From Anaerolineaceae bacterium (GTDB taxonomy: Bacteria; Chloroflexota; Anaerolineae; Aggregatilineales; Phototrophicaceae): a stretch of DNA of 64,000 nt. The notes beneath the pieces are model-generated. The model did not search any database and was not told the origin of the DNA. It worked only from the letters and a program-made list of their open reading frames with translations. Shown piece after piece: positions 46,087-54,255 of the stretch (position 1 is the first letter of the stretch; every line of letters begins with the position of its first letter). The stretch covers positions 1-64,000 of the forward strand of contig PABP01000005.1 of assembly GCA_002699585.1 (NCBI GenBank). Direction: 5' to 3'. A program made the translations under genes and the position numbers.

Positions 46087-48177
46087 ATGAAACTGACGAA
46101 AGAAACCACCCTTTTTTGCCCTGATGCCACCATCAGCGAAATCGCCTACGCGCTCAAGGCGCTGCGTGCGGACATGGCCGCCATATTCGGCCAGGAATCC
46201 ACACTAATTACTGAAGAAAGAAGCGACCAAATTCAGATACGGCTCGTTCCCAGTGAGCGCGAAGAAGCTTTTCATATTCGCTGCGATGGCGATGGGGTGA
46301 AGATCGAAGGCAGCGATGCGCTGGGCGTCGTGTTCGGGATTTACTATTTTTGTGAGCACAGCTTGGGCGTTGACCCTTATGGCTACTGGACCGATTTCCC
46401 CATTGTGCCGCGCGAGGTCATCGACCTACCTGCATTGGATTACACCTCACCGGAGCCAAAAGTGCGCTTCAGAGGCTGGTTCATCAACGATGAGGATTGT
46501 CTGATTGGTTGGCACGATGAAATGGAAATTTCCCTGGCTACCTGGGAAAAAATCTACGAGACGATTTTGCGGGCGGGCTTCAATATGGCCATCGCCGGGA
46601 CCGGGTCCAAGCCAACCGATGCTCATTTACAATTGGCCAGTGATATGGGTGTGTGGCTGACACAGCACCATGCCGAGCCCTTGGGGGCGCGTTTCTTCAG
46701 CGATGCCTACCCCGGCATTCCTGCGCGTATTCCAGAAGAACGGGACCGTTTTGTCGAGCTGTACCGCGAGGCCATCAACCTGCATCGCGGGCGCAAGATC
46801 GTGTGGGCGCTGGGTTACAGAGGCCAGGGTGACAGCCCCTTCTTTCGCTCCGACCCGCGCTATGCCACGCTGGAAGCGCGCGGCAAAGCCATCTCGGATA
46901 TGATCGCGTTGCAGAAAAGCCTGGTCGAGGAGATGACCGATACGCCACAGCACTTCGCCCATAATGTCTATTCCGAGAGCGCTGAATTGTACCGCGAGGG
47001 GCATCTGCCACTGGCTGACGACATCATCCGGGTGTGGGCCGATAATGGCTTTGGGGCCATGCGTGCCCGTCGGGAGTGGAACCGTGAGCCGAATGTATCG
47101 TCGCTGCCGTTGGAGAGCGACAAAGACAAGGCCAGCGGCGTCTACTATCATGTCAGCTTCCATGATTTGCAGCTCGCCAGCGTCCACATGCCCTTCGTCG
47201 CTCCGGCCCTGATTCAGGAGCAGTTCGCGCAGCTATACGAAGCAGGCAACATTCGCTTTTTGACGTTGAACACCAGCAACATTCGCCCGCACGTCTTTAA
47301 CATTGATTTCATCAGCAAGCTGACGCGCTTCCCTGAGGAGCACTTCACAGGTGATGCCAGCCCGGTCGAGCAGCATTATGCCGCCTGGACTGGCAAGTAT
47401 TTCCCTGGCCATGAAGCCGCCATTCAGGATTTGATCGAACGCTACCATGCGGCCTTCTTCGGTTATGGCCCCAAGCCGGATGAAGTCGCCGGGGAGCAGG
47501 TGGCGCATCATGGGCTGCGCAATGCCATCAGCGCGATTGTGCATGGCCGCAACGTGTTGGAATCCACCTATACGTTCCATTACATTCCTGATCCGGTGGA
47601 AACAACAGAAGACTGCTTTAACTGGCTGCTGGCCAAAGCTGAGCCGACCCTGCCCAAGTGGGCATCACTGCAAGCCGATGCCAAAACCCTGGCTGCTCAG
47701 CTAGACGGTTATTCAGCACAGTTCTTCACCGACAATATCCACAAACAGATCGACTATATGGCCAACTCGTATCAGGGGTTGGTGTATGGATTGCAGGGAT
47801 TGCTAGCTTACATGAGCGAGGACTATCTGGGGGCATTCTGCTTGCTCAGCCAGAGCAAGTGGGCGATAGATGCCGCTTGGGAAGCTCTCATCCGAACTGA
47901 ACATGACAAATGGAAAAACTTCTTCCGGGGTGAATGGCTAACGGGTACGCAGGAAACACTCCGTTGGCTGGAAACCGCACGTGGTATGGCCAAAATCATG
48001 GCCGATACAGGCGTCGATATGTATCTGCCTGCATGGCCCATCCAGGCGTTGGACGCAGCCGGACAGTCAACGATTCATACGATTATGCAGGCCGTCACTG
48101 AGAATGATGGACTCGCACGGGCGCTCATCTCAATCAAGGATGGACACCTGCTGCCGCCATCAGACTGGTTGAGCTAA
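46087..48177 (+). CDS. GH115-like glycoside hydrolase (alpha-glucuronidase type)
   Basis: I choose the ATG at 46087 (MKLTKETTLFCPD) over one 21 codons upstream. The 696-residue protein lacks a signal peptide. It has an N-terminal beta/alpha domain (about 1-100, ending GVVFGIYYFCEHSLGVDPYGYWTDF) and then the barrel start KVRFRGWFINDEDCLIGW, typical of GH115. After this come long helical parts. GH115 enzymes remove glucuronic acid from xylan; identification here is by the middle region only, and the protein is shorter than classical members, so specificity may differ. Confidence 0.65.
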   Translation: MKLTKETTLFCPDATISEIAYALKALRADMAAIFGQESTLITEERSDQIQIRLVPSEREEAFHIRCDGDGVKIEGSDALGVVFGIYYFCEHSLGVDPYGYWTDFPIVPREVIDLPALDYTSPEPKVRFRGWFINDEDCLIGWHDEMEISLATWEKIYETILRAGFNMAIAGTGSKPTDAHLQLASDMGVWLTQHHAEPLGARFFSDAYPGIPARIPEERDRFVELYREAINLHRGRKIVWALGYRGQGDSPFFRSDPRYATLEARGKAISDMIALQKSLVEEMTDTPQHFAHNVYSESAELYREGHLPLADDIIRVWADNGFGAMRARREWNREPNVSSLPLESDKDKASGVYYHVSFHDLQLASVHMPFVAPALIQEQFAQLYEAGNIRFLTLNTSNIRPHVFNIDFISKLTRFPEEHFTGDASPVEQHYAAWTGKYFPGHEAAIQDLIERYHAAFFGYGPKPDEVAGEQVAHHGLRNAISAIVHGRNVLESTYTFHYIPDPVETTEDCFNWLLAKAEPTLPKWASLQADAKTLAAQLDGYSAQFFTDNIHKQIDYMANSYQGLVYGLQGLLAYMSEDYLGAFCLLSQSKWAIDAAWEALIRTEHDKWKNFFRGEWLTGTQETLRWLETARGMAKIMADTGVDMYLPAWPIQALDAAGQSTIHTIMQAVTENDGLARALISIKDGHLLPPSDWLS

Positions 48178-48873
48178 TTTCATAAAGCTGCGGGCAACCA
48201 ATACGGAGAAAACGCTCCAGGGTAGCAGCGAGACAAAACCGAATAACAGGCCAATGGTGCCAAAAGGCGTAGGCACCAGCATCAGCACGCCCGCGATCAA
48301 ACCGGCATAGGCGGCGACTTTGCTGAAGTGCGGGCTGCGCAGCATCACCCAGGCGAATAGTAGCAGGGCAACAGCGTTTAGCAGATAATAGGCAATGAAT
48401 GCAGTGCCTACATATTTGATGGTCAGCGCCTGACCTGCCCCCAGTAAGATGGCCTGCTGGGCGGCATCGGCAGTAGCGTACTGTTGACTGAGCGCCAGCA
48501 TTTCAAAGGCGGTATTGGTCGGGAAGTAAGCGGTTATACCCACCAGCCCGGTCACCAGTGCCACCCAGATAGCGGATCGATGCAGTGAGCGCAGGGCAAC
48601 GAACAGCGCCAGATAGATAACAATCATCAGGGCGTTATTGACCAGATACAACAGGTCAAGATTGAGCAGCGCCATGAGGGGGTTATCGATCAGATGGGCA
48701 AACCAATCCGTGATCAGCTCCGGCGGCGGTGACACCATGAAGACGATAATCTGTATGGGGATAATCAGCACATTGACGATGGCAGCGACTGCACCCAGGC
48801 GGTAAAGCCAGCGCCATGATAGATCAGCCGGATCGCTGCGGGCCTGCGTGATAACGTTCGACGCAGCAGGCAT
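48160..48873 (-). CDS. DUF4386-like membrane protein
   Basis: AAGGAGG five bases before the ATG at 48873 (MPAASNVITQARSD) sets the start; 237 residues. Six membrane helices are visible, with a WRWLYRLGAVAAIVNVLIIP opening, a conserved-looking AYFPTNTAFEMLALSQQYA loop, and GTAFIAYYLLNAVALLLFAW. This agrees with the DUF4386 family of unknown function in layout. Its end overlaps the GH115-like gene by 18 bases tail to tail. Confidence 0.6.
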   Translation of the reverse strand: MPAASNVITQARSDPADLSWRWLYRLGAVAAIVNVLIIPIQIIVFMVSPPPELITDWFAHLIDNPLMALLNLDLLYLVNNALMIVIYLALFVALRSLHRSAIWVALVTGLVGITAYFPTNTAFEMLALSQQYATADAAQQAILLGAGQALTIKYVGTAFIAYYLLNAVALLLFAWVMLRSPHFSKVAAYAGLIAGVLMLVPTPFGTIGLLFGFVSLLPWSVFSVLVARSFMKLAQPV

Positions 48874-48981
48874 GCATTCCTCCTTTGGCATATAGGCATT
48901 ATAGCTAGCCTACTCAGGCTGAAGCGCCTCTCACAAGTGAGGGATGTCATGCAGCTATCACATTATGGACGGACACGGTTA

Positions 48982-49362
48982 TCAACCCGCTAGCGCTGCG
49001 TCAATTTGCTGCTGAAGCACGGCTTCGTCGATGATGCCCTGGGCACGATACGCTTCGTCGCCAGCGGCAGTGAACAGCACAAAGCTGGGATGCCCTGGCA
49101 AATTCAGGCTGCGGAAAGCGGCTTCGCCATCGGCGGCATCGCGGGCGTTATAGCTGATGAAGGCGACCTGATCGCTGTATTGCTCTTCTAGCCCATTCAC
49201 GATGGGCGTCATGCGCGCTCAAGGCGGTCATTCATCGGTGTAGAAAAAGAGGAAAGTGGGCTTGTCGACAGCCAGTGGCAACTCGACCGATGCGTTTTGT
49301 GCCGTGGCACAAGCGGTCAGGCTAAACAGGAGCAGCAGAAATAAGCTGAAAAATCGAAGCAA
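48982..49362 (-). CDS. Candidate selenoprotein: thioredoxin-fold lipoprotein with UPPU active site
   Basis: One frame runs from a TTG at 49362 to the stop at 48982 if two TGA codons, at 49230-49228 (codon 45) and 49221-49219 (codon 48), are read through. The product would be 126 residues. It has a lipoprotein signal with lipobox LTAC (Cys18), then KPTFLFFYTDE, TGA-Pro-Pro-TGA, then ARMTPIVNGLEEQY and the cis-Pro segment LPGHPSFVLF. The two TGA fall exactly where thioredoxins have the CxxC pair (compare the usual WCPPC or WCxxC form), so both are read best as selenocysteine. A TTG start and an AGG nine bases upstream are weak; no ATG is available before an upstream stop. A conventional gene caller would report only the 76-residue part from the internal ATG at 49212. 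Nearby genes end in TGA, so TGA is not reassigned in general. Confidence 0.75.
49191..49207 (-). promoter_or_regulatory. Candidate bacterial SECIS element
   Basis: In the transcript, GCCCAU and AUGGGC form a perfect six-pair stem closed by the loop CGUGA. Counting from the U of the second UGA as 1, the loop G and U are at 22 and 23, and a G is among the first two loop bases, as required in bacterial SECIS elements; E. coli fdhF has its loop GU at 23-24. For the first UGA the G is at 31, still within the tolerated range. Confidence 0.55.
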
Positions 49363-50299: not shown

Positions 50300-50340
50300 G
50301 TTAAACGTCCTCAGCCTAATATAGAATCTATGTGAACACT

Positions 50341-50367
50341 GGTCACATTAAACTCAAGAATGTGACC
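50341..50367. promoter_or_regulatory. Inverted-repeat operator between hydrolase and tetR
   Basis: GGTCACATT (50341-50349) and AATGTGACC (50359-50367) match perfectly with a nine-base spacer. Additional TGTGA and GTCAACATT half-sites flank them (50331 and 50371). Placed between divergent starts at 50299 and 50404. Confidence 0.65.
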
Positions 50368-50403
50368 GTTGTCAACATTCAATATTTTTCGAAGGCAAAC
50401 CCA

Positions 50404-51012
50404 ATGTCAGAGCCAACCCAACGGCCCTATCATCATGGCAATTTATACACATCGATGCTCGATACTGCGCAGGAGATTTTGCAGACAGAGGGTATCAGCG
50501 GCATTACCATGCGGGAGATTGCCAAGCGCGTTGGGGTTTCCCACTCAGCCGCGTATCGTCATTTTGCCAGCAAGGAATTATTGCTCGCCATGATCGCAAA
50601 GAGTGGCTTTGAGTCCTTAACTGGGATATTGAGGTCCATTCGCGACGACGATGACATCCCCCTTGGCCATAAATTCCAGCAAATGGGCATCGCGTATATT
50701 CACTTCGCAGCCGAACATCCAGCCCAATATCGCTTGATGTATGGTAGCGAAGCCATTGATGCAACCGAATTTCCTGAGTTGCAGTCAGCGATCCGTACGC
50801 TGGCTAAAGAGGTTTTATCCATGATTAAAGTCTGTCAGCAGGGGCGCACGATCAAAGCGAGCAATGCCGTGCAAATATCGAATGCAGCCTGGGCTTTAAC
50901 ACATGGAGCCGCCATGCTCATTATAGATAAGCGTATTGAAGTAGATGATATTACGGCCTTTGCTCGCAGCATCACAGAAATTCTGCGTGAGGGTATCGCA
51001 CCGTCAAATTAA
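50404..51012 (+). CDS. TetR/AcrR-family regulator
   Basis: The ATG at 50404 (MSEPTQRPYHHGNLYTSM) with GAAGG eight bases upstream gives 202 residues. The DNA-binding part is GISGITMREIAKRVGVSHSAAYRHFASKELLL at about 35-65, and the C-terminal part is of the WHG/TetR_C_33 kind (FAAEHPAQYRLMYGSEAIDA). It probably represses itself and the divergent alpha/beta hydrolase through the inverted repeat at 50341-50367. Confidence 0.9.
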   Translation: MSEPTQRPYHHGNLYTSMLDTAQEILQTEGISGITMREIAKRVGVSHSAAYRHFASKELLLAMIAKSGFESLTGILRSIRDDDDIPLGHKFQQMGIAYIHFAAEHPAQYRLMYGSEAIDATEFPELQSAIRTLAKEVLSMIKVCQQGRTIKASNAVQISNAAWALTHGAAMLIIDKRIEVDDITAFARSITEILREGIAPSN

Positions 51013-51015
51013 GTA

Positions 51016-51936
51016 TCAATGCGGCTCAGGCTGTTGCTGATGAGCCTTCTCCGATTCTGTCTGGCCTACCATCCAGCAATCATCAGGGCCGTATTCCAAC
51101 TGCACGGTGATATGCTCCAGTACCATGCCCTCGACCACATGCATCACCTGCTGGCGAATGTCATCGCGCTGCTGGCGGTCGGTCGCTTCATCCACGACCA
51201 GATGCGTCGTTAGCACATTATGTTCGCCATCCAACGACCAGATATGCGTGTGATGCACGGACTGTACGCCTGCAATCGACCTGAGTTTGTCATCAATGTC
51301 ACTGACATCGACCTCAGCGGGCGAGGCCTGCAAAAACAAAGATACCGTATCGCCTAGACGCTGCCAGACATTATAGAGAATATAGAGCGTGATACCGACC
51401 GATAGCAGCGGGTCAAGGATGGGCACATCGAAGAAAAACAGCACGATGCTGACCACCAATACCGCCACCCAGCCGAGCACGTCTTCCAGCAGGTGCAGGG
51501 CGACCACACGCGCATTGGTCGTCTTGTCGCCTTTGAGCCGCCAAGCGGCCAGCCCATTGATGGCAATACCGATGATTGCCAACAGCAGCATCCCCGGCGC
51601 TTCAACTGTTTGCGGGTTGAGCAAGCGCGGGATGGCTTCCGTCAGGATGTAGATCGAGCCGACAACAAGCACAATCGAATTGATGAGCGCCCCCAGCAGG
51701 GACAGCCGACGAAAGCCATAGGTAAAGCGTTGTGTCCCGTCCCGCTCGGCATAGCGGCCCAGAACCCAGGCCAACCCTAGCGATAGGCTGTCGCCGAGAT
51801 CGTGCAGGGCATCGGACATAATGGCGACGCTGTTGGTCAATGCGCCACCGATGACTTCCAGGATGGCAAAGCCCAGGTTGATGGCAAAAGCCCAACCCAG
51901 GTTGTTGCTGTTTCCATGTTGATGCTGATGTCCCAT
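51016..51936 (-). CDS. Cation diffusion facilitator (zinc exporter)
   Basis: The 306-residue protein has a His-rich start (MGHQHQHGNSNN), six membrane helices and the metal-site motifs SDALHDLGD (helix 2) and HLLEDVLG (helix 5), of the HxxxD/HxxxD kind that favours zinc. The cytoplasmic C-terminal domain (about 210-300) has HHTHIWSLDGEHNVLTTHLVVD, the CzcD-like part. AAGGAG precedes the ATG. It lies 21 bases after the copper ATPase gene on the same strand, so the two form a metal-efflux operon. Confidence 0.92.
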   Translation of the reverse strand: MGHQHQHGNSNNLGWAFAINLGFAILEVIGGALTNSVAIMSDALHDLGDSLSLGLAWVLGRYAERDGTQRFTYGFRRLSLLGALINSIVLVVGSIYILTEAIPRLLNPQTVEAPGMLLLAIIGIAINGLAAWRLKGDKTTNARVVALHLLEDVLGWVAVLVVSIVLFFFDVPILDPLLSVGITLYILYNVWQRLGDTVSLFLQASPAEVDVSDIDDKLRSIAGVQSVHHTHIWSLDGEHNVLTTHLVVDEATDRQQRDDIRQQVMHVVEGMVLEHITVQLEYGPDDCWMVGQTESEKAHQQQPEPH

Positions 51937-51957: not shown

Positions 51958-54072
51958 TTAGGCTATGGCTGCTTCCTCAAGGTCCAGATTGCGTAAGAGC
52001 TGGGCGTTGATGGCCACCACAATCGTACTCAATGACATGAAGGCGGCCCCCACGGCTGGCGACAAAATGAAGCCTACCGGGGCCAGGACACCCGCCGCCA
52101 GCGGCAGCGCGATGACATTATAGGCTGTGGCCCAGATTAAATTCTGGATCATCTTGCGGTAGGTGGCACGACTGAGTTCAAAGATTTTGAGTACATCCAG
52201 TGGGTTGGACTGCACCAGAATGATGCCCGCCGACTCAATCGCGACATCGGTGCCGCTGCCAATCGCAATGCCGACATCAGCACGGGTCAGGGCCGGGGCG
52301 TCGTTGACACCATCACCGACCATCGCCACCTGCTTACCCCCTTTTTGCAGTTCGCTGATCTTCTGATCTTTGTTCTCCGGCAGTACTTCGGCAAACACTG
52401 TGTCGATGCCCAATTTGCGGGCGACGGCCTCGGCTACTTGCTGGCTATCACCTGTGAGCATAGCGACTTCAATGCCCATCTCGTGCAGACGATCCACCAC
52501 CTGCTGGCTTTCCTCGCGGATGACATCAGCCAGGGCGAAAGCAGCCACCACAGCCCCCTCGACGATCATGTAAACGACCGTTTGGGCGTCGTCGTTGGCC
52601 TGCTGACGGAAATCGTCCATCGCGCCATTAAGCTGGATGTCGAGCATATCGAGCAGGCCCGGCCCACCGACATACACCGTCTGGCCGTCATAAGTAGCCT
52701 GAATGCCACGACCCTTGATGGCTTCAAAATCGCTGATTTCCACAGGTTTGACGCCCGCTTCTTCAGCTTTTTCACGGATGCCGCGCGCAATGGGGTGCTC
52801 AGAGTCCCCTTCGACAGCCAGGGCCAGTGACAGTGCGCGCTGTTCGTCCCAGTCATCGGTCAACTGCATAGCACTCACACCAAAGCGGCCTTCGGTAAGC
52901 GTGCCCGTTTTATCGAAAACGACCGTGTCAATATTGCGGGCATTTTCCAGGGCGGCGCGGTCACGGACCAAAATGCCATTATTGGCGCCTTTGGACGTGC
53001 TGATGGCAATCACCAGCGGAATCGCTAAACCGAGCGCATGCGGGCAGGCGATCACCAGCACGGTGGCCACACGCTCGATAACATCAATCTCAAAGCCAAC
53101 TGCGATGATCCAGGCGATGGCCGTCAGGATAGCGACACTGAGCGCAATATAAAATAACCAGCTCGCGGCGCGGTCAGCCAGCATTTGCGTCTGCGTTTTG
53201 CTGTTCTGGGCTTCTTCCACCAGGCGCATGATGCCTGCCAGTGATGTCTCGTCACCCGTCGCGGTGATTTTGACGCGCAGGCTACCATCGCCATTAATCG
53301 TGCCGCCGATGACGTGATCATCTTCTCCTTTGGCAACTGGCTTGGATTCGCCGGTAATCATGGCTTCGTCCAGGCTGGATTGGCCGCTGATAATATCGCC
53401 ATCCGCCGGGACGCTGGCCCCAGGCCGCACGAGCACAACATCGCCCTGGGATAGCTCGGTGACCTGCACTTCTTCCGTGCCACCGTCATCCGTGACGCGC
53501 TCAGCGGTATCCGGCATGAGCTTAGCCAATTCATTGAGCGCGCCGGATGCCTGCCGCACGCTGCGCATTTCGATCCAATGGCCGAGCAGCATCACATCAA
53601 TCAGGGTCGCCATCTCCCAGAAGAAGCTCTTGCCCGTTCCAGTCGCTAAAGCGAAGAGGCTATAGATGAACGACACCGAGATCGCCAGCGAAATCAGGGT
53701 CATCATGCCAGGGTTGCGATTTTTGACTTCTGGCACGGACATCTGCAAAAACGGCAATCCACCGTAGATAAAGATGATGATGGCAAAAATTGGGCCGATA
53801 TACTCGCTGCCAGTGAAGCTCGGCATACTAAAGCCGAACCATTCCTGAATCATCGGGCTGAACAACAGCACCGGGATGGTCAGCAGCAAGCTGACCCAGA
53901 AACGATTGCGAAACATGATTTCATGACCACGATGATCGACCCCATGTCCACCGTGCCCCTCATGGGCTGAATGGTCCTCATGATTGTGATGGTCGTCTTG
54001 ATGGTCATCTTGATGAGCGTCTGAATCGTGGGCGGACGGGCGATGACTGGTATGGGCAGCGTGTTCTGTCAT
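51958..54072 (-). CDS. copB: CopB-type heavy-metal P-type ATPase
   Basis: AAGGG seven bases upstream favours the ATG at 54072 ([16 protein letters not shown]); 704 residues. A long His/Asp-rich N-terminal stretch replaces the CxxC metal-binding domains of CopA. The metal-path motif is CPHALGL, the phosphorylation site DKTGTLTEG, the nucleotide loop SEHPIARGI, and the hinge [15 protein letters not shown] rather than CPC and the His-rich N-terminus mark the CopB group, exporting copper or silver. It is first in an operon with the CDF gene. Confidence 0.93.
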
Positions 54073-54255
54073 GGTGTGCCCTTTCAATAATAGTCTTTAC
54101 TTCATGATAAGGCCTAGACGCATCACTTTCAGGCGAATGCACCGAATTCTGAGCAGATGCTCAGGCAATCTAATACAATTCCAAGGGGTTTGCGGCGGTG
54201 ATCGGCGCAGGGCATAATGGCCCCAGATTGATCCGCATCAGATAGATAGGCTGCT

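Follow-up and report, generated by a model that had tools for sequence, protein, structure and literature searches.

A lipoprotein thioredoxin of Chloroflexota with two in-frame UGA codons at its active site, a probable double-selenocysteine protein

Background

Thioredoxin is the textbook CxxC enzyme. Two selenocysteines (Sec, U) in a UxxU motif on a thioredoxin fold have been described for SelL/Prx-like 2 and the Prx-like UxxU thiol:disulfide oxidoreductase (PF00578; PMC13188914, PMC2398784), and the title of Shchedrina 2007 reports that SelL has a diselenide redox pair. Within the thioredoxin family, Sec is known from the selenocysteine thioredoxin (PF00085, UxxC; PMC13188914, reference 84) and from Trx-like 1 (UxxC or CxxU) of an ocean survey, in which UxxU was assigned to Prx-like 2 (PMC2398784). 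A 2026 inventory gives thioredoxin as UxxC only and lists UxxU for a Prx-like family, a mercuric-reductase-like protein (NF041115, putative mercuric reductase/metal-binding protein) and FmdB (PMC13188914). Tethering outside the membrane is found in TlpA/ResA/CcmG-type thioredoxins, which are CxxC proteins; TlpA reduces ScoI and COX II before copper loading (PMC6696091).

Insertion of Sec at UGA is directed in bacteria by a SECIS hairpin, modelled as having a loop of 3-9 nt with G in the first two positions, a UGA-to-loop distance of 16-37 nt and a folding energy of -7.5 kcal/mol or below (PMC13188914). The classical element of Escherichia coli fdhF, a 17-nt hairpin with GU in the apical loop, follows its single UGA after an 11-nt spacer. 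Here, we describe a gene in which such a hairpin is preceded by two UGA codons.

Results and discussion

A thioredoxin lipoprotein gene with two in-frame TGA codons

The window (the whole stretch of DNA analysed, 64,000 nt of contig PABP01000005.1 from an Anaerolineaceae bacterium) contained on its minus strand, from 49362 to 48985, a single open frame broken only by TGA at codons 45 and 48. With TGA translated as U, the product was 126 aa long, starting with LLRFF, ending with ALAG and having the motif UPPU directly after TFLFFYTDE. The features of the gene are as follows.

48985..49362, minus strand: coding sequence of the UxxU thioredoxin lipoprotein, 126 aa, TTG start (from PF00085, homologues and dN/dS in relatives)
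49309..49362, minus strand: predicted lipoprotein signal peptide with lipobox LTA-C18 (A17 and C18 invariant in 7/7 aligned)
49228..49230, minus strand: TGA codon of U45, N-terminal (attacking) active-site position (TGA in all 87 Sec-type homologues)
49219..49221, minus strand: TGA codon of U48, C-terminal (resolving) active-site position (TGA in 59 homologues)
48979..48984, minus strand: tandem terminal stop TGA-TAA, UGA thus being an ordinary stop in this gene too

The TTG start aligned with the ATG of relatives. Beyond the UPPU motif, the protein had a thioredoxin second half (PIVNGLEEQY) and a cis-Pro region (GHPSF), while its LTAC lipobox predicts export and lipid anchoring outside the cytoplasmic membrane; 48 of the 59 UxxU members had the strict lipobox pattern, and an LxxC-type site was present in the listed misses too. 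PF00085 matched at 33.9 bits (Pfam gathering score, 23.5). Structure prediction gave a thioredoxin fold (mean pLDDT, 86.6) whose top PDB matches by Foldseek were thioredoxins, and the active site lay at the N-terminus of the helix after the first strand, as in the thioredoxin fold. These results confirmed what the preliminary description had read from the letters, namely one minus-strand frame with a lipoprotein signal, both thioredoxin halves and TGA at the two CxxC positions. Its interpretation as an exported double-Sec thioredoxin was supported by the Sec machinery, the conserved double TGA, purifying selection and a covarying hairpin described below, and we put the probability that this is a double-Sec selenoprotein gene at roughly 0.93.

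A mechanical listing of open reading frames in the window reduced this gene to 76 aa, beginning at an internal ATG, and for this reason the family has probably been overlooked or cut to fragments in many Chloroflexota genomes. Directly downstream on the same strand (48160-48891, minus) lies a gene for a hydrophobic, membrane-like protein with no Pfam match.

Comparison with known selenoproteins

The protein shares two Sec codons, UxxU and the fold with SelL and the Prx-like proteins, but these are peroxiredoxin-like, whereas it belongs to PF00085 and is a small lipoprotein of Chloroflexota; its PF00578 score was 19.5 bits, below the cut-off of 26. With the Sec-thioredoxins and Trx-like 1 it shares the family and Sec at the N-terminal active-site position, but differs in that the second active-site residue would also be Sec and in being a predicted extracytoplasmic lipoprotein. 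The UxxC relatives fall within the tree of the UxxU family. NF041115 and FmdB, although bacterial UxxU selenoproteins as well, are other families, which the protein did not match. It resembles TlpA/ResA/CcmG-type thioredoxins in its membrane tether (a lipobox, judged by sequence only) and in its neighbourhood, but has a lipid anchor, and UxxU in place of CxxC; scores for NCBIfam ResA (16.6 of 170 bits) and, with the paralogue L043, for TlpA (16 of 230) were far below the cut-offs. With four members scored against NCBIfam 20.0, no model reached its cut-off and no named selenoprotein family was hit, and NCBIfam and Pfam together returned thioredoxin but no selenoprotein family.

The preliminary description had taken a protein of this kind to be undescribed, and this holds in part: UxxU proteins of the Prx-like/SelL type and UxxC Sec-thioredoxins were each already known, and what is new is UxxU in a PF00085 thioredoxin, of which we found none in the open-licence literature or in the 2026 inventory (PMC13188914).

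Homologues and selection beyond the UGA codons

Counted as distinct genes among the fetched loci, all from Chloroflexota, the homologues comprised 59 UxxU (the window gene included), 24 UxxC, 4 UxxS and 30 CxxC genes, with no CxxU among them. The UxxU genes were spread over 51 searched genomes with 14 Anaerolineae family codes, besides three GenBank MAGs in which both TGAs were present (UPPU, UAPU and UGPU). Two paralogues in the window's genome, C4 (UGPU) and C7 (USTU), also had both TGAs. The thioredoxin fold with the cis-Pro region was retained in most members, the distant paralogue C7 lacking cis-Pro in the alignment. The genes form a widespread, apparently uncatalogued family in Chloroflexota.

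A rival explanation is that the gene is a pseudogene or a sequencing error, that is, a CxxC thioredoxin with two nonsense mutations. Two chance nonsense mutations, already thought unlikely in the preliminary description, can now be excluded, since the two paralogues in this genome and all 59 distinct UxxU genes have both TGAs, and the dozens of independent genomes rule out an assembly error at these codons. Coding sequence was conserved on both sides of the in-frame UGA, with Cys homologues existing at the UGA positions. For UxxU pairs more than 75% identical, dN/dS after the hairpin was 0.046-0.187, and the frame ended 75-85 codons past the second TGA in all but one of the 55 UxxU genes with a visible end. 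The low dN/dS and near-constant frame length indicate translation of the sequence past the UGAs. No decaying relatives were found, although a gene in genome G584, in which no Sec machinery is visible, suggests that some copies may be dead. For the window gene, a pseudogene or assembly error is effectively excluded.

This G584 (same genus, single contig) had an intact UPPU gene with its hairpin (L076; G584:C1, about 371659-372006), but SelA, SelB, SelD and tRNA-Sec all gave nothing over the cut-off. The simplest reading is a recent loss of the Sec pathway that left a relic gene, a hole in the assembly being possible instead. SelA was found in 46/50 other UxxU genomes versus 1/9 genomes with only Cys-type genes among the matches listed, a class that rests on lists of best hits only. 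Three of the four SelA-negative UxxU genomes were 67-81% complete and had Sec genes of other kinds (tRNA-Sec, SelD with TGA, or part of SelB); the fourth was G584.

In a tree of the remaining protein, with few columns and many open forks, UxxU needed at least 5 changes; one large cluster held 53/59 of the UxxU genes, and there were a few separate cases. Several members vary at the active site: 1) the sister genes L118 (G484:C213, UPTU) and L139 (G520:C417, UATC) share 82% identity past the hairpin, which indicates that the second active-site residue switched recently, 2) L134 (G512:C96) has CGTC and comes from a genome without SelA, yet it retains a SECIS-like hairpin, and with UGTC in its sister L018 (G283:C54) it has apparently reverted from Sec to Cys, the hairpin being a possible fossil SECIS, and 3) the UxxS variants L056, L058, L019 and L057 have lost the resolving residue and kept Sec, L056 and L058 lying near a UxxC gene. 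In addition, locus L080 has a distant second thioredoxin-like frame (UQPC) about 450 bp upstream of a UIPU gene on the same strand.

Selenocysteine machinery and UGA use

The 6.7-Mb genome assembly of the window contained the full Sec pathway, with a tRNA-Sec of anticodon TCA (72.8 bits), SelA (565 bits), SelB (344 bits) and SelD (380 bits); an Rfam scan of the window itself found tRNAs only. This SelD has its own in-frame TGA in the motif SCAGUASKL. The locus (L070, G000:C35:514430-515365) thus encodes a selenoprotein itself; its hairpin has a GGU loop and a longer UGA spacing, and four relatives are similar.

Since the inserted residue cannot be read from sequence alone and Cys homologues exist, UGA could in principle be decoded as another amino acid (e.g. 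Cys by a variant tRNA) or be reassigned genome-wide. However, UGA terminates the window gene and 17/49 mechanically listed ORFs of at least 200 aa in the window, and TGA was the end stop in 19/55 UxxU genes with a visible end. UGA being an ordinary stop in the window's ORFs, general reassignment is not the explanation and, for the window gene, is effectively excluded. The full Sec pathway with a Sec-type SelD and a hairpin that follows UGA use, not Cys use, also speak against another decoding, to which we give a very small chance.

The SECIS-like hairpin

A hairpin of the expected kind was located just after the second UGA.

49191..49207, minus strand: SECIS-like hairpin GCCCAU-CGUGA-AUGGGC, separated by 20 nt from the first UGA and by 11 nt from the second

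Its 6-bp stem and CGUGA loop agree with the bacterial model, as do the distances of the loop from the second (17 nt) and the first UGA (26 nt). The minimum free energy of -9.1 kcal/mol was below the threshold of -7.5 kcal/mol but no better than that of shuffled sequences: z was -0.2 to -0.5 in five of six stretches, and in the 49-nt stretch a rival fold competes. Because the single-sequence folding energy is not unusual, the case for the hairpin rests on covariation and codon use.

Stem cells were paired in 92.7% of cases in the 87 Sec-type genes, compared with 11-48% when the partners were slid and 44% in CxxC members, and the hairpin was absent in most CxxC relatives. One stem pair joins position 1 of an Ile/Val codon to the synonymous position 3 of an Asn/Asp codon; it was A-U in 72 genes, G-C in 14 and another combination in 1. 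On the tree this pair involved 9 changes, and 6/6 independent pairs on supported branches agreed. Likewise, where a Gly codon was AGG, the opposite Pro codon was CCT (7/7). One pair count (A2) used a hand-picked, variable subset (n = 28), the unselected 87 Sec-type genes being counted separately. Codon use within the hairpin was strongly biased, with ATC for Ile in 68/68 (window background, 0.54), GTG for Val in 79/86 (0.36) and GGG for Gly in 71/74 (0.18). A covariance model of the hairpin recovered from the window's genome, at E <0.1, only the three UxxU genes, all of which had been used for training; 200 kb of other regions gave no significant match. The covarying hairpin would direct Sec insertion via SelB.

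One hairpin and two UGA codons

In the proposed mechanism, SelB and Sec-tRNA-Sec would read both in-frame UGAs as Sec, directed by the one coding-sequence SECIS hairpin just past the second UGA. This would depart from fdhF, where the hairpin serves one UGA; the stem and loop sequences also differ, while the spacer of 11 nt, the 17-nt length and the GU in the loop are the same. As the 11-nt distance of the fdhF hairpin is matched by the second UGA only, it could be argued that one UGA alone is read efficiently from this hairpin, the other being poorly read or needing a separate signal. In UxxC genes, however, the same hairpin stands 20 nt after the lone UGA, the distance that it has from the first UGA of UxxU genes (20 and 11 nt). 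Moreover, RNAalifold detected no second conserved structure in the 105 nt from -30 to +75 of UxxU genes, and the hairpin of SelD in the same genome is still farther from its UGA; because its loop is about 33 nt away, the UGA-hairpin distance seems to be loose in this lineage. We consider efficient reading of one UGA alone quite unlikely; the single hairpin seems to serve both UGAs, 9 nt apart.

Neighbouring genes and possible function

Two metal-transport genes lie 1.7-4.7 kb upstream of the UxxU gene.

51958..54087, minus strand: P1B-type metal ATPase (by Pfam) with a His-rich N-terminus and a CPH motif (copper type), upstream of and on the same strand as the UxxU gene
51016..51936, minus strand: cation-efflux (CDF) protein (PF01545, 149.9 bits) between the ATPase and the thioredoxin, a possible functional context only

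Between the ATPase and the UxxU gene there are two same-strand genes and one divergent gene, an alpha/beta hydrolase gene being among them. A TetR-like regulator (so classed by its sequence; 50332-51012, plus) adjoins the CDF transporter, is divergent from the hydrolase and thioredoxin genes, and is possibly a metal or stress regulator.

Within about 2 kb, 19 of the 59 UxxU genes had a lipoprotein-type cytochrome c, 15 a P1B ATPase, 11 a DsbA-like Thioredoxin_4 protein, 7 DUF3105 and 6 a cupredoxin-like protein; the counts are not independent, as the loci are related, and no neighbour is universal. In 40 arbitrary 5-kb regions from eight of the same genomes, the P1B ATPase occurred once, and cytochrome c, DsbA-like protein, DUF3105 and cupredoxin-like protein did not occur. 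A cluster of histidine-kinase neighbours was dropped, as it was equally common in random regions (4/40). In G584 the gene order is a Rieske-type protein, a TlpA-like CVPC thioredoxin, the UPPU gene, a DsbA-like protein and cytochrome c, where the Rieske and TlpA names are presumptive, assigned by us from reading the sequence.

The protein, exported, lipid-anchored and of thioredoxin fold, would have a selenol pair/diselenide, U45-P-P-U48, as its redox pair. It would most likely be an extracytoplasmic thiol-disulfide oxidoreductase, in which U45 would attack the disulfide of a substrate and U48 would resolve the resulting mixed selenenylsulfide; by analogy with TlpA/ResA-type thioredoxins, its substrates may be cysteines of respiratory or copper proteins (apocytochrome c, copper-site proteins). 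The best-supported working role, reduction outside the cytoplasm in aid of copper or cytochrome c maturation, has, in our view, only slightly less than an even chance; it is tentative because only some of the loci have these neighbours and because the loci are related to one another.

Selenolates bind soft metals tightly, and the main rival gives the same protein another job, in which the selenol pair would bind soft metals (Cu+, Ag+, Hg2+) as an extracytoplasmic trap or metallochaperone with no dithiol exchange. It would suit the P1B ATPases near 15/59 UxxU loci, with CPC or CPH motifs where seen, the CDF transporter and CPH ATPase near the window gene, and the cupredoxin-like proteins. On the other hand, most members have kept the thioredoxin fold with the cis-Pro region, the UxxC and CxxC relatives resemble an ordinary redox series, and the cytochrome c and DsbA-like neighbours are equally consistent with redox work. 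We consider metal binding unlikely. The broader picture built on the reductant role, in which one SECIS hairpin drives two Sec insertions 9 nt apart and widespread lipid-anchored diselenide thioredoxins act beyond the Chloroflexota membrane as reductants for the maturation of copper proteins and cytochrome c, is possible but somewhat less likely than not.

Conclusions

What the preliminary description could not show from the single gene is the large size of the family in Anaerolineae, the apparent use of one hairpin for both UGAs, and the recurrence of copper and cytochrome c genes in the neighbourhood. The double UGA followed by one hairpin makes it possible to test, in a natural gene, the reach of a SECIS and the reuse of SelB within three codons, while the CxxC/UxxC/UxxS/UxxU series in one phylum, with its recent switches, would allow the contribution of the second selenium to be measured.
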